In this document: piece by piece, positions 6,962 through 15,166 of the stretch
Layout of the letters: every line of letters begins with the position of its first letter
How positions within the stretch are numbered: position 1 is the stretch's first letter
Origin: Brevundimonas vitisensis
Lineage (GTDB): Bacteria > Pseudomonadota > Alphaproteobacteria > Caulobacterales > Caulobacteraceae
Length of the DNA: 64,000 nt
Direction: 5' to 3'
Assembly: GCF_016656965.1 (NCBI RefSeq)
Contig: NZ_CP067977.1
Span: 2,647,501-2,711,500 of the forward strand
Position numbers and translations under genes: made by a program
Notes under the pieces: model-generated
What the model was told of the DNA's origin: nothing
Seen by the model: only the letters and a program-made list of their open reading frames with translations
The model's database searches: none

Positions 6962-6999
6962 TTAACGCCACGTTTACCATGGGGGCGGCAGTTTCTGCC
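6962..6999 (+). promoter_or_regulatory. Probable CtrA box and FlbD (ftr)-like palindrome in front of fliF
   Basis: TTAA-N7-TTTA at 6962-6976 fits the CtrA consensus TTAA-N7-TTAA with one mismatch. Ten bases later lies a perfect palindrome GGCAG-TTT-CTGCC (6987-6999). In Caulobacter the fliF promoter is switched on by CtrA and repressed by FlbD at an ftr site next to it. The order and position here, 50-85 bases before the fliF start, match that design. The binding itself is inferred. Confidence 0.62.
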
Positions 7000-7045: not shown

Positions 7046-8695
7046 GTGGGCGGCTTCACGGGGGCATTGCAGAGGTTCGGGATCGGTCGCCTGGCGGCCA
7101 TCCTTGGCGTGGCCGCTGGCGTCACGGCCGTTCTGATCTTTCTGATGATGCGTGTGGGCCAGGCCCCCGACGCCCTGCTGTATTCCAATCTGGACCTGCG
7201 CGAGGCGTCGGAAATCACCGCCGCCCTGGACGCCGGCGGTATCAAATATTCATCCAAGGGGGACGGCTCGACGATCTTCGTCAGTCGCGACCAGGTCGGA
7301 GAGGCCCGGCTGATGCTGGCCGGCAAGGGTCTGGTGACGTCCGGATCGGTCGGATACGAGCTATTCGACAACCAGTCGGTCCTGGGTCAGACCGAGTTCC
7401 AGCAGAACCTGAACGCCCAGCGTGCTCTGCAGGGCGAGTTGCAGCGCACGATCATGTCGATGCGCGGTATCACCTCGGCGCGCGTGTCCATCGCCATGCC
7501 GCAGCGGGCGCTGTTTCAGTCCGAAGCTGCCGATCCGACCGCCGCCGTGGTGGTGGGCCTGGGCGGTCGCGACCTGACGGGCGATCAGGTGCGCGCCATT
7601 CGAAACGTCGTCGCCTCGTCCGTGCCGAACCTGAAGCCGGACCGCGTGACCGTGGTGGACGACACCAACCGCACCTTGGCCGCCGGTGCCGAAGACGAGG
7701 GCTTTACGTCCGCCTCTGCCGAAGAGGCGAAGGCGACGACCGAGAGCCAGTTGCAGGCCCGCATCAAGGATATCGTCGAGGGTGTCGTCGGTGCTGGCGC
7801 GGCCCGCGTGCAGGTCACAGCGGAGATCGACCACAGCCGCTCGACCACGCAGGAGCAGAAGTTCGATCCGGATGGCCAGGTGGTTCGCTCCACCTCGAGC
7901 AATGGATCCACCTCTCAGGACACGACCGGCGTGCCCAATGGCGGTGTGACGGCGGCCGAAAACATTCCCGGCGGCGAAGCGCCCGGTGCGGCCGTGGCGG
8001 GCTCGACCTCCCAGGACCAGACCGAGACGATCAACTACGAAATCTCCAACGCCACGACCACGACGGTAAAGGAGCCGGGCGAGGTCAAGAAGCTGTCGGT
8101 TTCGGTGGCGGTCGATGGCCGCTGGACCCCTGCGGCCAACGGCGAGGGTGAGCCCACCTATGCGGCGCGCACGCCCGAGGAGATCGAGCAGATCAAGGCC
8201 CTGGTCGCTGCCGCCGTCGGCATCGATCCGGCGCGGGGCGACAAGATCGAGGTGCTGAATGTGCGCTTCAACCGCGATGCGGCTCCGGCCCTGGCGGGCG
8301 AGGGCGGCTCTTCGATGTTCGACTTCGGCCGAGCCGACATCATGCGCGGCGTGGAGCTTCTGGTTCTGCTGATCACCGGCCTGCTCTTGATCTTCTTCGT
8401 GCTGCGTCCGCTGTTGAAGACCGCGTCCGGCGCAGGGGCTCAGGGCATGGTTGCCGGGCCCGGCGGAATGTCGGTCACGACCTTGCAGACCTCGCCCGTT
8501 GGCGGGGCAGCGGCCGGCATGCTGGCGGGGCCCGCAGGCCAGCTGATGGGGCCAAGCGACATGGAGCAGCGGCTGGACATCGCCCGCATCGAGGGACAGG
8601 TGAAGGCGTCCTCGGTCAAGAAGGTGGCGGACTTCGTCGAGAAGCATCCGGAGGAATCCACCTCTATCCTCCGCACCTGGGTGCATGAAGGCTGA
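7046..8695 (+). CDS. fliF: Flagellar MS-ring protein FliF
   Basis: FliF (549 residues) builds the MS ring, the inner-membrane base of the flagellar motor that carries FliG. A first membrane helix spans about residues 14-36 ([19 protein letters not shown]), followed by the large periplasmic ring-building domain of the YscJ/FliF type. A second helix, [19 protein letters not shown], lies near residue 437-455. The C-terminal cytoplasmic tail binds FliG. Translation starts at GTG 7046. It opens the fliF-fliG-flbE-fliN-flbD operon, behind a CtrA/FlbD-type control region. Its stop overlaps the fliG ATG by one base. Confidence 0.97.
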
Positions 8696-9729
8696 TGGCG
8701 CGACTGGTCTCCAAGAAGCCGGCGATCGACGATGCCCGCAAGCTGACAGGGCCGGAGAAGGCGGCCGTCATCCTGCTGGCGCTGGGCGAGGAGCACACCC
8801 GCCTGTGGCAGGGGCTGGACGAGGACGAGATCAAGGAAATCTCTCAGGCCATGGCGACCCTGGGCACGGTCAGCGCCCAGGCCGTCGAGGATCTGATGCT
8901 GGAGTTCGTCTCGGGCATGAGCGGCTCGGGCGCGGTCATGGGCAGCTTCGAACAGACGCAGAAGCTGCTGGCCTCCTTCATGCCGGTCGACAGGGTCGAG
9001 TCGATGATGGAGGAGATCCGCGGACCGGCCGGCCGGACCATGTGGGACAAGCTGGGCAATGTGAACGAGGCGGTCCTCGCCAACTATCTGAAGAACGAAT
9101 ACCCCCAGACGGTCGCGGTGGTCCTGTCCAAGATCAAGCCCGACCACGCCTCGCGGGTGCTGACCAGCCTGCCCGAAGACTTCGCCCTGGAGTGCGTCCA
9201 GCGGATGCTGCGGATGGAGCCGGTCCAGCGCGAGATCCTGGACAAGATCGAACAGACCCTGCGGACCGAGTTCATGTCCAATCTGGCGCGCACCTCCAAG
9301 CGCGACAGCCACGAGATGATGGCGGACATCTTCAACAGCTTCGATCGTCAGACCGAGGCCCGTTTCATCGGGGCCCTGGAAGAGCGCAACCGCGAGGCGG
9401 CCGAGCGTATCCGCGCCCTGATGTTCGTGTTCGAAGACCTGTCGCGACTGGACCCCGGCGGCGTCCAGACCCTGTTGCGGGCGGTCGAGAAGGACCAGCT
9501 GGGCCTGGCCCTGAAAGGGGCGTCCGAGACGCTGCGCGAGATGTTCTTCTCCAACATGAGCGAGCGCGCCGCCAAGATCATGCGCGAGGACATGAACAGC
9601 ATGGGCCCGGTCCGTCTGAAGGACGTCGACCTGGCCCAGATGGCAATGGTCCAGGTGGCCAAGGATCTGGCGGCCAAGGGCGAGATCATGCTGGCCGGCC
9701 AGGGCGGCGATGACGAGCTGATTTACTGA
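8695..9729 (+). CDS. fliG: Flagellar motor switch protein FliG
   Basis: FliG (344 residues) is the switch protein that couples stator ion flow to rotor torque. It has the usual three armadillo-like domains. [14 protein letters not shown] is this protein's version of the conserved EHPQ motif of the middle domain, and the charged torque helix of the C-terminal domain is near [20 protein letters not shown]. It sits on the cytoplasmic face of the FliF ring and binds FliM/FliN. Its ATG overlaps the fliF stop (TGATG), so translation is probably coupled. The length is normal. Confidence 0.97.
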
Positions 9730-9730
9730 C

Positions 9731-10393
9731 ATGAGCACCCCTGTCCCCATTCTCAGCCGACCCTTCGTTTTCGACACCGAGTTCGACGGCGTCGGCGATG
9801 TCGTTCGCGCCTCCTCGTTCCGTCCGGCCAAGCGATCCTATCTGCCAGCCGAGGTAGACGCCCTGGTCGCGCAGGCCCGGCTGGAGGGCCGCGAGGCCGC
9901 CCTGGCCGAGGCCGACAGTCTGCGTTCCATGGCCTTCAGCACGATCGGCCAGGCCTTGGCGACCGGCCTGCCGGCCCTGGCCGAGGTTGCGCGGGCGCAT
10001 CGGGAACAGTCGGCCGAGCTGGCCCTGGCCGCTGCGCGCGTGATCGCCTCCGCCGCCCTGGATCGTCTGCCGACCGGACCCCTGCAGGCGGCGCTGGAAA
10101 GCCTGGCGCAGGAGGTCGACGCATCGCCGCGCCTGACGATCCGCAGCCGAACGCTGGACGAGGCGGGTCGTGCCGATATCGAGCGTCTGTGTTCGGAAGC
10201 CGGCTTTACCGGAGCCGTGGCCTTCCGGGAGGAGCCGGGCATGCCCGTCGCCGCCTTCTGCCTGGAATGGGCGGACGGGCGGGCCGAATACGATCCCGAA
10301 GCCGCCGCAGACCGGCTTGCCGAGGCCCTGGCCTCTGCGCTCGCTGCCGAAGCTGGACACGCCGAACCCTTTCCTAATGGGACTCGAAACTGA
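9731..10393 (+). CDS. flbE: FliH-type flagellar export regulator (FlbE)
   Basis: A 220-residue protein at the fliH position; in Caulobacter this gene is called flbE/fliH. FliH proteins bind the FliI ATPase and tether it to the export gate. The middle is an Ala/Glu-rich helix (about residues 40-120) that probably forms the stalk-like coiled coil. The C-terminal part (LTIRSRTLDEAGRADIERL onward) resembles the FliH/YscL globular domain. It starts one base after the fliG stop and overlaps fliN by one base. Sequence conservation in this family is low, so the call leans on gene order. Confidence 0.85.
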   Translation: MSTPVPILSRPFVFDTEFDGVGDVVRASSFRPAKRSYLPAEVDALVAQARLEGREAALAEADSLRSMAFSTIGQALATGLPALAEVARAHREQSAELALAAARVIASAALDRLPTGPLQAALESLAQEVDASPRLTIRSRTLDEAGRADIERLCSEAGFTGAVAFREEPGMPVAAFCLEWADGRAEYDPEAAADRLAEALASALAAEAGHAEPFPNGTRN

Positions 10394-10722
10394 TGGCTGC
10401 CGACATGCCCCTGGAGGAGTTCGCCTCCTCGACCGCCCTGGCGACGACCGATGACGGCCACGACAAGACGGCGTCCGATCTCGCGCCGGTCTTCGACGTG
10501 CCCGTGAACATCTCGGCTGTGCTGGGCAAGGCCCACATGACCGTCGCCCAGCTGCTGAAGCTGAACAAGGGCAGCGTGCTGGAGCTGGACCGAAAGGTCG
10601 GCGAGGCCATCGACATCTTCGTCAACAACCGCCTGGTCGCCCGCGGGGAGGTCGTCGTCGTCGAGGATCGCCTGGGCGTGACCATGACGGAAATCATCAA
10701 GACCGAGGACACGGGCGCCTAG
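10393..10722 (+). CDS. fliN: Flagellar motor switch protein FliN
   Basis: FliN (109 residues) forms the lower C-ring together with FliM. After a variable N-terminus the SpoA/CheC-like domain begins at VFDVPVNISAVLGKAHMTVA and continues with LLKLNKGSVLELDRKVGEAI and the basic/hydrophobic core IFVNNRLVARGEVVVVEDRL. The length and motif order are standard. It starts at the overlapping ATG in the flbE stop and is followed 38 bases later by flbD. Confidence 0.95.
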   Translation: MAADMPLEEFASSTALATTDDGHDKTASDLAPVFDVPVNISAVLGKAHMTVAQLLKLNKGSVLELDRKVGEAIDIFVNNRLVARGEVVVVEDRLGVTMTEIIKTEDTGA

Positions 10723-10760: not shown

Positions 10761-12149
10761 ATGCGGCTTCTGGTGGTCGGCAGACTGAGCGGACAGCTCG
10801 CTTCGGCGGTGAAAATGGCCATGGCGCACGGTGCCAAGGTCCAGCATGTCGAGCGCGGCGATCAGGCGACGGAGCAACTGCGCCGCGGGCAGGGGGCCGA
10901 CCTTCTGATGGTCGACTACCGTATCGACATCGCCGCCCTGATCGCAGCGAACGAGGCCGAGCGGATCCATGTGCCGGTGGTGGCCTGCGGCGTCGATGCG
11001 GCAGCGGCAGAGGCGGCTGCGGCCATCAAGGCCGGAGCCAAGGAATTCATCCCCTTGCCGCCGGATGCGGATTTGATCGCGGCGGTGCTGGCGGCCGTGG
11101 CCGACGACGACCGGCCCATGATCTCGGCCGACCCGGCGATGAAGGCGGTGATCGGACTGGCCGATCAGGTCGCCCGCTCCGAAGCCTCCATCCTGATCAC
11201 CGGCGAAAGCGGCGTCGGCAAGGAGGTGATGGCCCGCTATCTGCACCAGAATTCGCGGCGCGCGGAGCGTCCCTTCATCAGCGTCAACTGCGCGGCCATT
11301 CCCGACAACCTGCTAGAGTCGGAGCTGTTCGGCCACGAGAAGGGGGCCTTCACCGGCGCCGTCGCCCGCCGCATCGGCAAGTTCGAGGAGGCCGACGGCG
11401 GCACGCTTCTGCTGGACGAAATCAGCGAGATGGACGCCCGCCTGCAGGCCAAGCTGCTGCGCGCCATCCAGGAGCGGGTAATCGACCGGGTCGGGGGCTC
11501 CAAGCCGGTGCCCGTCAACATCCGCATCATTGCCACTTCCAACCGCGACCTGGCCAAGGCGGTGGCCGAGGGCACCTTCCGCGAAGACCTGCTGTATCGG
11601 CTGAACGTGGTGAACCTGCGCCTGCCGTCGCTGCGCGAGAGACCCGGCGACATCGCCGTGCTGGCCGATCATTTCGTGCGCAAATACGCCGCCGCCAACG
11701 GTGTGCCGCCCCGTCCGCTGTCGCCCGAGGCGCACCGGGCTCTGGTCGCTCATCGGTGGAACGGCAACGTCCGCGAGCTGGAGAACGCCATGCACCGGGC
11801 GGTGCTGCTGGCCGTGGGCCCGGAGATCGACGTGGAGGCCATCCGCCTGCCGGACGGCCAGCCGCTGAGCGGGGGGATCAGCCCGTATGATGCCGGCCCG
11901 GCCGGCCGCGCGGCCCAGACGGCCGACACCGTGTCGCGCGCCGCCGTGGGCCAGACCGTCGCCCAGATGGAAAAGACCCTGATCCTGGACACGCTCAGCC
12001 ACTGCCTCGGCAACCGGACGCATGCCGCCACCATCCTGGGCATCTCGATCCGCACCCTGCGCAACAAGCTCAACGAATACGCCGACGAAGGCACGGTCAT
12101 CCCCGCGCCCCAGAGCGGAATCGCCGCCAGCGGCTATGCGGCGGCCTGA
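10761..12149 (+). CDS. flbD: Flagellar sigma-54 activator FlbD
   Basis: FlbD (462 residues) activates sigma-54 promoters of late flagellar genes and represses fliF. An N-terminal receiver-like domain (1-115) keeps an Asp at position 52 but lacks the acidic pair that normally follows the first strand (VVGR instead), so it is atypical, as known for Caulobacter FlbD, which is controlled by FliX. The AAA+ domain has Walker A GESGVGKE, the sigma-54 loop GAFTGA and Walker B GGTLLLDE. The C-terminus is a Fis-type helix-turn-helix (THAATILGISIRTLRNKL). A GGGAG site precedes the ATG. Confidence 0.93.
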   Translation: MRLLVVGRLSGQLASAVKMAMAHGAKVQHVERGDQATEQLRRGQGADLLMVDYRIDIAALIAANEAERIHVPVVACGVDAAAAEAAAAIKAGAKEFIPLPPDADLIAAVLAAVADDDRPMISADPAMKAVIGLADQVARSEASILITGESGVGKEVMARYLHQNSRRAERPFISVNCAAIPDNLLESELFGHEKGAFTGAVARRIGKFEEADGGTLLLDEISEMDARLQAKLLRAIQERVIDRVGGSKPVPVNIRIIATSNRDLAKAVAEGTFREDLLYRLNVVNLRLPSLRERPGDIAVLADHFVRKYAAANGVPPRPLSPEAHRALVAHRWNGNVRELENAMHRAVLLAVGPEIDVEAIRLPDGQPLSGGISPYDAGPAGRAAQTADTVSRAAVGQTVAQMEKTLILDTLSHCLGNRTHAATILGISIRTLRNKLNEYADEGTVIPAPQSGIAASGYAAA

Positions 12150-12152
12150 TCC

Positions 12153-13046
12153 ATGGGCATGCGCGCGGACCGCAGAAGCGTTCTGACTGGATTGGCGGGT
12201 CTCGGACTGGTCGGATGCGACCGCGCGCCGCTCAGCGACGTGCGGGTCACACCGTTCGACACAACGCTGGACCTGTCCGCGCTGGAGGCCCGCCATGGCG
12301 GGCGTATCGGTCTGTCCGCCTTCAACGACGACGGCCGCGTGACATGGAGAGGCGGCGAGCGGTTCGTCTATTGCTCGACCTTCAAGATGTTTCTGGCCGC
12401 CGCCACCCTGCTGCGCGTCCAGGCAGGTCAGGAGCGGTTGGACCGGGCCATCCCGATTACGGCCGCCGACATGATCGTTCATGCTCCGGTCACCGAGCCC
12501 GCCGTGGGCGGCGCCCTGACGGTGTCCCAACTGATGCAGGGCACGGTCGAGGTCAGCGACAATCCGGCCGCCAACATACTGATCCGCGAGATGGGCGGGC
12601 TGGAGGCCTTCGGTGCCTTCTATCGCGGCATCGGCGACACGGTCACCCGCGTCGATCGTCTGGAGCCCGAGATGAACCGGCTCGACGGTGACAAGGACAC
12701 GATTACCCCGATCCAGTCGGCAACCAACATCAGCCGCCTTCTGGTGTCGCCGAACACGCCTCTGGACACGGCCTCGAAGGCCCTGCTGACGCGCTGGATG
12801 ACCGATAGCCCGACCGGGCTGGGCCGGATCAAGGCCGGGGTGCCGACCGGCTGGGGTGTGGCGCACAAGACTGGAACCGGCGGCTATGGCCCGGTCAACG
12901 ACATCGGTGTGATCTATCCGCCGTCGGGCGATCCGGTCGTGATCGCCATCTACTTCCATGCCGAGCGCACCACCCGGACGGCTGATGCGGAAGCCGTCGT
13001 TGCCGAGGCCACGCGACTGGCCCTGACGGGTCTGGGGATCACATGA
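12153..13046 (+). CDS. Class A beta-lactamase, Tat-type lipoprotein, inside the flagellar operon
   Basis: A 297-residue serine hydrolase with all class A signatures: S75-T-F-K78 (Ambler S70xxK73) preceded by Cys74, S135-D-N (SDN loop), E171-P-E-M-N175 (E166xxxN170) and K239-T-G (KTG box). Class A enzymes hydrolyse penicillins and often cephalosporins in the periplasm. The N-terminus has paired arginines (RADRRSVLTG) and a lipobox ending in C22, so it is probably Tat-exported and lipid-anchored. It starts 3 bases after flbD and overlaps flhA by 4 bases (ATGA), so it is part of the flagellar transcript. No LysR-type ampR-like regulator lies nearby. A role in peptidoglycan rather than drug hydrolysis is possible. 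Confidence 0.92.
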   Translation: MGMRADRRSVLTGLAGLGLVGCDRAPLSDVRVTPFDTTLDLSALEARHGGRIGLSAFNDDGRVTWRGGERFVYCSTFKMFLAAATLLRVQAGQERLDRAIPITAADMIVHAPVTEPAVGGALTVSQLMQGTVEVSDNPAANILIREMGGLEAFGAFYRGIGDTVTRVDRLEPEMNRLDGDKDTITPIQSATNISRLLVSPNTPLDTASKALLTRWMTDSPTGLGRIKAGVPTGWGVAHKTGTGGYGPVNDIGVIYPPSGDPVVIAIYFHAERTTRTADAEAVVAEATRLALTGLGIT

Positions 13047-15166
13047 CCGACATCCCTGCTGCCCCTTTGCTGAAGGACGGGATGGCGCGTCCGTCCGGGG
13101 CCGACATCCGCGGCTGGCTGATGCGCGGCGAGGTCGGCATGGCGGTCGGCGTGATCGGCGTGATTCTGCTGCTGATCCTGCCGATCCCGAAGTTTCTGCT
13201 GGATCTGCTGCTGGCTATTTCGCTGGTGTCCAGCGTGCTGATCCTGATGACCGCCCTGATGATGAAGCGGCCGCTGGACTTCGCCATCTTTCCGACGGTG
13301 CTGCTGGTCTCGACCCTGTTCCGGCTGGGTCTCAACCTGGCCTCGACGCGCCTGGTTCTGTCTCACGGGCATGAAGGGCACGATGCCGCCGGCCAAGTGA
13401 TCGCCGCCTTCGGCTCGCTGATGATGGGCGGCAGCTTCATCATCGGGCTGATCATCTTTGCCATCATTCTGGTGGTGAATTTCGTGGTCATCACCAAGGG
13501 CTCGACCCGGATCGCCGAGGTCAGCGCCCGCTTCACCCTGGACTCCATGCCGGGCAAGCAGATGGCCATCGACGCGGACCTGTCCGCCGGGCTGATCACC
13601 GAGGATCAGGCCAAGCTGCGCCGCAAGGAGCTGGAACAGGAATCCACCTTCTTCGGGGCCATGGACGGTGCGTCCAAATTCGTGCGCGGCGACGCGGTCG
13701 CGGGCCTGATCATCGTTTTCATCAATGTGATCGGCGGCATCCTGATCGGGGTCATCCAGCATGGCCTGCCGATCGGCGATGCGGCCAACACCTATGTGCA
13801 GCTGTCGGTCGGCGACGGCCTGGTGACCCAGGTGCCGGCCATCATCATCTCGATCGCCGCCGGCTTCCTGGTGTCCAAGGCCGGGGTGGAGGGATCGGCG
13901 GACAAGGCCCTGGTCTCCCAGCTGGCCACCAACCCCGTCAGCCTGGGCGTGGTCGCGGGGGCATCCGCCTTCCTGGCTGTGATCCCGGGAATGCCGATCA
14001 TCCCGTTCATGGCATTGGCCGCGGGGGCTGGCTTCATGGCGTGGCGTCTGGGCCGCGCCCGCCTCAAGCCTCAGCCGACCGAGGCCGAGATCGCCGCCGC
14101 CGCATCGGCGGGCAAACCTAAGGAAGACGTCGAAGAGCCGATCGGCACCGCCCTGACCATCGACGAGGTCAAGATCGAGCTGGGCTATTCACTCCTGTCC
14201 CTGATCAACGACCTGGAAGGGCGCCGCCTGACCGATCAGGTCCGGGCCCTGCGCCGCTCGATGGCCCAGGAGTATGGCTTCGTCATGCCTTCGGTGCGCA
14301 TCCTGGACAATATGCGGCTGGGCACCCAGGGCTATGCCATCCGCATCAAGGAGATGGAGGCCGGGGCTGGAGAAGTGCGCCTGGGCCAGCTGCTCGCCAT
14401 GGACCCTGCCGGTCGCCAGGTCGAACTGCCCGGCGAGCACACCAAGGAACCGGCCTTCGGCCTGCCCGCCACCTGGATCGACGAGTCCCTGCGCGAGGAG
14501 GCGACATTCCGGGGATACACGATCGTGGATCCCTCCACGGTCCTGACCACCCATTTGACCGAGATCCTCAAGGAGAACATGGCCGACCTGCTGTCATTCG
14601 CGGCGGTGCAGAAGCTGCTGAAGGAACTGGACGGCGAAGAGAAGAAGCTGGTCGACGAACTGATCCCCACGGTGGTCACGGTCACGACCCTGCAGCGGGT
14701 GCTGCAATCGCTGCTGCGCGAGAAGGTCTCGATCCGCGATCTGGCAGCGATCCTGGAGGGTCTGGCCGAAGCCGCGCCGCACACCACCTCGGTCACCGCC
14801 CTGGTCGAGCATGTCCGGGCCCGGCTGTCGCGTCAGCTGTGCTGGCAGCACCGGGGCGACGACGGGGCTCTGCCGATCGTGACCCTGTCGCCGGAATGGG
14901 AGGCCGCCTTTGCCGAAAGCCTGATCGGTCAGGGCGAGGACCGGCAGCTGGCCATGGCCCCCTCGCGGCTTCAGGACTTCATCCGCAACGTCCGCGACGT
15001 GTTCGAGCGCGCCGCCATGGCGGGCGAGACGGCAGTGCTGCTGACCGGCCCCATGGTCCGCCCCTATGTCCGCTCGATCATCGAACGGTTCAGGGGCCAG
15101 ACGGTGGTGATGAGCCAGAACGAGGTCCACCCCAAGGCCCGCCTGCGGACCATCGGCACGGTCTGA
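13043..15166 (+). CDS. flhA: Flagellar export gate protein FlhA
   Basis: FlhA (707 residues) is the main export-gate subunit of the flagellar type III secretion system. The N-terminal half carries about eight membrane helices, from GVIGVILLLILPIPKFLLDL on. The FHIPEP-family core is seen in TVLLVSTLFRLGLNLASTRL, and a long cytoplasmic domain follows from about residue 345. That domain docks chaperone-substrate complexes. The start ATG overlaps the beta-lactamase stop by four bases, so its translation appears coupled to that gene instead of flbD. Confidence 0.97.
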   Translation: MTDIPAAPLLKDGMARPSGADIRGWLMRGEVGMAVGVIGVILLLILPIPKFLLDLLLAISLVSSVLILMTALMMKRPLDFAIFPTVLLVSTLFRLGLNLASTRLVLSHGHEGHDAAGQVIAAFGSLMMGGSFIIGLIIFAIILVVNFVVITKGSTRIAEVSARFTLDSMPGKQMAIDADLSAGLITEDQAKLRRKELEQESTFFGAMDGASKFVRGDAVAGLIIVFINVIGGILIGVIQHGLPIGDAANTYVQLSVGDGLVTQVPAIIISIAAGFLVSKAGVEGSADKALVSQLATNPVSLGVVAGASAFLAVIPGMPIIPFMALAAGAGFMAWRLGRARLKPQPTEAEIAAAASAGKPKEDVEEPIGTALTIDEVKIELGYSLLSLINDLEGRRLTDQVRALRRSMAQEYGFVMPSVRILDNMRLGTQGYAIRIKEMEAGAGEVRLGQLLAMDPAGRQVELPGEHTKEPAFGLPATWIDESLREEATFRGYTIVDPSTVLTTHLTEILKENMADLLSFAAVQKLLKELDGEEKKLVDELIPTVVTVTTLQRVLQSLLREKVSIRDLAAILEGLAEAAPHTTSVTALVEHVRARLSRQLCWQHRGDDGALPIVTLSPEWEAAFAESLIGQGEDRQLAMAPSRLQDFIRNVRDVFERAAMAGETAVLLTGPMVRPYVRSIIERFRGQTVVMSQNEVHPKARLRTIGTV

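Follow-up and report, generated by a model that had tools for sequence, protein, structure and literature searches.

In the window, a 64 kb stretch of the Brevundimonas vitisensis chromosome, a gene encoding a complete and intact chromosomal class A beta-lactamase (bla, 12153–13046, + strand) is embedded in an operon of flagellar genes, and its conserved place there suggests that bla is switched by the cell cycle rather than by drugs. We regard it as fairly probable that this is an ordinary exported lactamase under flagellar and cell-cycle control, the job of which is beta-lactam defence and to which the flagellum merely lends transcription. According to this reading, bla would have become a stable member of a fliF-fliG-flbE-fliN-flbD-[bla]-flhA operon, would most likely be transcribed from a CtrA-dependent promoter before fliF, and would be translated jointly with its neighbors flbD and flhA. 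Its supply would then track the flagellar and cell-cycle programme and not the sensing of beta-lactams. Cotranscription, the timing of expression, enzymatic activity, lipid anchoring, and selection by beta-lactams are inferred from the evidence presented below. The enzyme itself adds one more member to a well-known family, and genes of this kind are already annotated as class A lactamase or penP, as in the resistome table of PMC10269605; what is new is the regulatory setting. Among the matches listed for the open-licence PMC literature, no report of a lactamase in a flagellar operon was found in titles and the starts of abstracts, and the word lactamase is absent from the main text of a study on gene control in Brevundimonas subvibrioides (PMC7987155).

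The Encoded Enzyme

The gene codes for 297 amino acids, with an alternative in-frame ATG at 12159, and its product reaches 251 bits against the NCBIfam class A model NF033103 (cut-off 200) and 125.8 bits against Pfam PF13354 (cut-off 22); it stays below the cut-off of every named class A subfamily model among the 25 best listed. The sequence-only reading had assigned the gene to class A by its motifs, and all of these are present on the + strand: STFK (12375–12386, residues 75–78, Ambler S70-x-x-K73), SDN (12555–12563, residues 135–137, Ambler 130–132), the ExxxN motif EPEMN of the deacylation step (12663–12677, residues 171–175, Ambler E166-xxx-N170), and KTG (12867–12875, residues 239–241, Ambler 234–236), the Ambler numbers being derived from the motifs. 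The residues S70, K73, S130, E166, N170, K234, T235, and G236 are invariant in all 78 sequences of a family sample, and the exception to motif invariance is N132, which is changed in two copies that lie outside the flagellar operon. An AlphaFold2 model built from an input of 17 sequences (mean pLDDT 89.5) is confident across the enzyme domain and predicts a class A fold, its best match among solved structures being 4c6y_B, a reconstructed ancestral class A enzyme (TM-score 0.91 by target, 45% identity). From its sequence, the product would be expected to hydrolyze beta-lactams enzymatically. In a search of the 2.98 Mb genome with the bla protein (E <= 0.001) the sole match was bla itself, and a second, weaker PF13354 match is a D-Ala-D-Ala carboxypeptidase.

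The N-terminus holds a predicted twin-arginine lipoprotein signal (12171–12218, + strand), in which, read from the sequence by eye, two arginines (residues 7–8) are followed by a hydrophobic stretch and a lipobox-like LVGC (residues 19–22) with cysteine 22. The arginine pair and the cysteine were seen at the equivalent place in 23 Brevundimonas orthologues, again by eye, and the lipobox is mostly absent, by the same kind of inspection, from the bla genes at this operon position outside Brevundimonas. The product is probably exported via a twin-arginine-type signal and, in Brevundimonas, lipid-anchored.

In fold, catalytic motifs, and export signal the enzyme is like the chromosomal class A lactamases of Proteobacteria of the PenA/PenI, L2, and BOR types, and its identity to the 50 solved structures listed, among them reconstructed ancestral enzymes, PenI, and a Bordetella enzyme, is 34–45%. 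Unlike these types, bla has no AmpR/PenR partner gene and is embedded in a flagellar operon. A resistome table lists a penP of Brevundimonas brasiliensis as a class A enzyme of 299 amino acids with 60% identity (PMC10269605), which is likely an orthologue of bla.

The Flagellar Operon and Its Presumed Promoter

Upstream of bla, all on the + strand, lie fliF for the MS ring (7046–8695; TIGR00206, 248 bits, cut-off 130), the motor switch gene fliG (8695–9729; TIGR00207, 242.5 bits, cut-off 226.7), a gene for a FliH/FlbE-like flagellar assembly protein which we take to be flbE (9731–10393; NF004693, 267 bits, just below the cut-off of 288), the motor switch gene fliN (10393–10722; TIGR02480, 101.8 bits, cut-off 84), and flbD for the sigma-54 activator of flagellar genes (10761–12149; NF050807, 804 bits, cut-off 750). 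Downstream follows flhA for the flagellar export gate (13043–15166, + strand; TIGR01398, 911 bits, cut-off 772). The tight junctions described by the sequence-only reading are borne out by the coordinates: three nucleotides separate the flbD stop at 12149 from the bla start at 12153, and the bla stop and flhA start share the 4 nt ATGA at 13043–13046 (+ strand).

This packing was compared in 33 loci in which bla lies in the flbD–flhA slot (linked loci), namely all 23 Brevundimonas loci of the family sample, nine loci from the 12 linked genomes of other genera, and one from Phenylobacterium SCN 70-31. Among the 32 with a computable distance, bla and flhA overlap in 25, by 8 nt in 12 loci, 4 nt in 10, 1 nt in two, and 20 nt in one, and the remaining seven distances are 0, 10, 47, 47, 56, 59, and 389 nt; start codons were picked by nearness to the alignment, and single distances may therefore shift. 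Outside Brevundimonas the overlap is found in seven of nine computable loci, at approximately 40% protein identity. It had also been claimed that flhA translation depends on bla; this claim is overstated, with five of 23 Brevundimonas loci lacking the overlap at 0 to 59 nt distance. In four of these five (L003, L004, L006, L017) the bla–flhA spacer measures 47–59 nt; GCGAATCCTGTCATCAGGCGG is common to three of them and a shorter CGAATCCTGTCATCAG is found in the fourth.

The presumed operon promoter is a CtrA-type box, TTAACGCCACGTTTACCAT (6962–6980, + strand; TTAA-N7-TTTACCAT), located before the fliF start at 7046. It agrees in 11 of 12 positions with TTAA-N7-TTAACCAT, presumably a longer form of the CtrA consensus, and is the best such site within the 64 kb window. 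A like box with 9–11 of 12 positions is found 80–85 nt before fliF in all 21 Brevundimonas genomes compared (20 relatives and the window), and shuffles of each region give means of 6.2–6.7 and maxima of 8–10, by which single boxes are not all beyond chance. Because the shuffle maxima reach these values, the constant place of the box is the stronger argument, and by its motif a predicted CtrA-type box stands ahead of the operon. The CtrA consensus is given as TTAA-N7-TTAA in PMC11264516 and PMC9437464, and for Caulobacter it is described that early flagellar genes are activated by CtrA and that fliF is repressed by FlbD (PMC3930126, PMC3096577). Across 23 loci, no stretch from the 200 nt upstream of bla through the gene itself to the start of flhA matches the CtrA box at more than 8 of 12 positions.

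The sequence-only reading had named a dedicated terminator and promoter beside bla as the feature that would speak against cotranscription, and the scan of 11700–13300 returned neither: no sigma-70-like promoter was found, a weak negative in a GC-rich alphaproteobacterium, and no terminator, which is weak as well since the scan is also blank after flhA. A sigma-54 promoter for bla was considered and dropped, as no site matches, again a weak negative given that the pattern is absent throughout 14.5 kb. Cotranscription of bla with fliF and flhA is likely because the genes are tightly packed, no terminator or promoter was detected at the junctions, and a conserved CtrA-type box was detected in front of fliF alone.

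The main rival to flagellar control holds that bla is a passenger in a tolerant flbD–flhA slot, constantly expressed from a hidden internal promoter of its own, which would render the flagellar timing meaningless. We judge this to be unlikely. A precedent and a point against flagellar control is blaA of Caulobacter crescentus (PMC13046382), a lactamase gene that, like bla, is set in an operon of unrelated function and that is not induced by drugs, as is proposed for bla; it differs from bla in being a metallo-enzyme in a methionine-biosynthesis operon, where a strong, constitutive internal promoter is presumed. Against a passenger stand the scan of 11700–13300 with no promoter-like site and the overlap with flhA in seven of nine loci of other genera at approximately 40% protein identity.

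Conservation of the Place in Brevundimonas

In a survey of 131 Brevundimonas genomes, in which the place was judged by bla and flhA, bla is present in 123, and in 121 of these carriers it precedes flhA in the same orientation, within 102 nt in 116 genomes and at 156–727 nt in five, two of which have only a partial flhA match. The two exceptions are one genome in which the genes are split over two contigs and one without an flhA match. Chance is excluded because both the gene and its position are conserved. The possibility that bla arrived recently as a mobile resistance gene was considered and is ruled out by the place shared among 121 of 123 carriers. In one of the five genomes with the wider distance (G434, locus L287), bla and flhA are 671 nt apart and the interval codes for a HicB-like antitoxin in the opposite orientation, a point against the preferred reading. 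In another Brevundimonas genome (G417:C229:22280-23160) the bla match is divided into two segments and contains one in-frame stop, through either gene decay or an assembly error.

Eight Brevundimonas genomes have no bla match. In the five whose slot can be judged (G122, G392, G419, G423, G441), flbD and flhA are retained at a distance of 45–200 nt and bla is missing from the gap; in G393 flhA is located at the edge of a contig, and G397 and G443 have no flhA match. These genomes bear on the proposal of the sequence-only reading that the enzyme acts on the wall where the flagellar rod passes, or, in a wider form, that it acts on peptidoglycan or penicillin-binding proteins at the rod crossing or aids assembly. 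The position in the operon and the conserved packing are the only points in its favor. The five genomes just named and many genomes of other genera lack bla and keep flbD and flhA; E166 and N170, the residues of the deacylation step, do not vary; bla evolves faster than its neighbors; and ten genomes in which neither flbD nor flhA was detected, several of them drafts, carry a related bla. Since operons retaining flbD and flhA in the absence of bla are common, a flagellar or peptidoglycan role is set low, and we consider it very improbable. A beta-lactam defence fits since the deacylation residues are invariant, selection is purifying, and alleles were apparently exchanged.

Occurrence in Other Genera and Linkage to AmpR

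In the family sample, 77 of 149 genomes have a bla match (78 matches), and 35 of the 78 occupy the flbD–flhA slot in eight genera, with 23 linked copies in g1, one in g5, one in g6, three in g10, two in g12, one in g13, three in g19, and one in g21 (g codes denote genera, g1 being Brevundimonas and g22 possibly Caulobacter, and G handles denote single genomes). The sequence-only reading had proposed a comparison of the flbD–flhA gap among related genomes and knew of no such gene at this place in Caulobacter; bla keeps this place across Brevundimonas, and its placement is neither recent nor unique, since seven further genera of the family have the gene in the same slot. Many genomes of other genera have flbD and flhA and no bla. 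Among named sequence stretches encoding a relative, of which the best 80 of 578 were taken, FlbD and/or FlhA adjoin bla in 26 loci, namely 25 Brevundimonas-type loci, a few of them labelled otherwise, and Phenylobacterium sp. SCN 70-31. Among the nearest relatives, most named records are Brevundimonas and a few have other labels. Two further contigs, L140 (labelled Pseudoxanthobacter) and L136 (Xanthobacteraceae bacterium Astr-EGSB), encode a bla 55–57% identical to that of the window with no FlbD or FlhA in the available flanks; at 57% the L136 gene is as close as some Brevundimonas copies, and a divergent AmpR-like gene (54% identical) lies upstream of it. In other families of the order, bla was seen near flhA, by eye, in none of the 48 genomes with a class A match, 47 of which have an flhA match, and the nearest pair on one contig is approximately 61 kb apart (G221).

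A different history of this distribution is that the slot captured class A genes on several occasions, separately in different genera, and not once in an ancestor, an account that we regard as possible, leaning somewhat against it. The best bla tree has five changes of the linked label on a weak backbone, the lipobox is mostly absent by eye from linked genes outside Brevundimonas, and the 57% identical bla of L136 lies outside the slot beside its AmpR-like gene, all of which favors independent captures. On the other side, the tree test does not reject a single clade of all linked copies (p-AU 0.344), different genera repeatedly show stop/start overlaps, and possible relics in bla-less slots, with their borderline statistics, suggest losses.

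Beside bla, a divergent AmpR-type (LysR-type) gene is found in ten of 43 unlinked copies and in none of the 35 linked copies, one of the latter having too little upstream sequence to judge. The ten are all seven copies of g22, both of g3, and the one of g9, and in each the regulator gene is divergent and located 95–270 nt upstream. The remaining unlinked copies comprise 31 without AmpR, counting G008 with an AmpR-like gene 1.5 kb upstream, and two with too little sequence. As an example of the regulators, that of G116 matches the solved AmpR structure 5mmh with E 1.8e-79 and scores 419 bits against the PenR model, below its cut-off of 625. In the window, no divergent ampR gene as in an AmpR-inducible system adjoins bla, the upstream neighbor being flbD, and the best AmpR-like gene of the genome, far from bla and 37% identical to the AmpR query, is GcvA (308.9 bits, cut-off 288). 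The earlier suggestion that bla expression follows the flagellar programme instead of drug exposure agrees with the absence of a neighboring AmpR from all 35 linked copies. A point against this reading is that AmpR is also missing beside 31 of the 43 unlinked copies; its absence is thus common to linked and most unlinked copies, and the linked copies contrast specifically with those of g22, g3, and g9. The AmpR-linked class A lactamases of these three genera belong to the same bacterial family, are 38–43% identical to bla, and are each the single copy in their genome at E <= 1e-20; they differ from bla in their divergent AmpR-type gene and in lying outside the flagellar slot. In six of the seven g22 genomes (L026, L065, L073, L076, L087, L090) the AmpR-linked bla is found 20–27 kb from flbD–flhA on the opposite strand, a near-constant distance for which we have no explanation.

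Slots Without bla

Among 67 bla-less slots, a twin-arginine start pattern occurs in six, with 0.77 expected from shuffles, and no more than 16 of the 23 intact bla genes of Brevundimonas show this pattern. Two slots with a candidate relic (G098, G123) were discarded, as the pattern there resembles an out-of-frame reading of the flhA start, and relics in G392 and G122 of Brevundimonas and in G017 and G031 of g17, the latter two probably one lineage, are suggestive only. Their peptide scores are borderline against the maximum of 200 shuffles, with 51 (52) for G392, 51 (52) for G017, 59 (70) for G031, and 35 (46) for G122. In a profile search G031 and G017 rank first with weak E-values (0.011 and 0.047; best shuffle 0.17), G392 falls among the shuffles (E 2.3), and G122 is not among the 15 matches listed. 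In two g17 loci (L058, L233) the flbD–flhA gap holds a short ORF with a start like the bla signal and an end like the bla C-terminus, which, with borderline statistics, is possibly a remnant of bla after an internal deletion.

The flbD–flhA junctions of seven g14 loci (L281, L282, L284, L285, L286, L289, L290) hold other genes: on the operon strand a diacylglycerol kinase (G042), Ogt-type methyltransferases (G014, G119), and an AAA protein (G114), and on the opposite strand a DUF1989 protein (G145), an amidohydrolase (G137), and a GFO/IDH oxidoreductase (G029).

That this junction accepts seven varied genes favors bla being a passenger with a hidden promoter; however, the g14 inserts vary by genome and three of seven lie on the opposite strand, whereas Brevundimonas has the same gene on the same strand in 121 of 123 carriers.

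Selection and Exchange of Alleles

Selection on bla is purifying, with dN/dS values of 0.14–0.31 in the eight closest pairs of Brevundimonas, which have genomes in common and so are not independent of each other, compared with 0.07–0.26 for the flanking genes. The mean identity to the window is 63% for bla, 88% for FlbD, and 86% for the available part of FlhA, and the distances of the flanks correlate only weakly with those of bla (r 0.27 and 0.35), another point against the preferred reading. The FlbD+FlhA tree unites G083 with G092 and also G066 with G002 and G049 (100/100 each), and both groups are rejected by bla (p 1.3e-7 and p 1e-63, respectively). The bla pairing of G083 with G066 is in turn rejected by the flanks (p 5.8e-9), and a flank group of G078, G087, and G131 is rejected by bla (p 0.005); all groups were picked after viewing the trees, and the p-values are therefore post hoc. 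One vertical history common to bla and its flanks was considered and is ruled out by this tree conflict, with the groups being post hoc. Given the conflict between bla and the flanks, bla alleles have apparently been swapped without a change of position, probably via recombination in the flanking genes, and strong rate differences are less likely as its cause. The first two of these rejections also count in favor of bla being a passenger.

Implications

If bla is an ordinary exported lactamase under flagellar control, a more far-reaching picture can be drawn, which we offer tentatively and to which we give somewhat less than even weight. CtrA drives division genes too, and the enzyme would then be supplied as a pulse in the predivisional cell, when septal wall synthesis would be most open to beta-lactams, so that tolerance would be a cell-cycle trait. 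Genera of the family would differ in having an AmpR or a CtrA/FlbD setting of the lactamase, and species would trade alleles through recombination, with the conserved flagellar genes as its anchor.

Chromosomal beta-lactamases are usually viewed as constitutive or as AmpR-induced by wall damage. The bla locus presents a resistance gene between highly conserved genes, the position of which is fixed and the sequence of which is still exchanged, and the related genera offer a testable contrast of AmpR-linked and flagellum-linked lactamases. If the proposed control is true, intrinsic resistance would be under developmental control in these bacteria, and their tolerance would be set by the stage of the cell cycle and by flagellar regulation.
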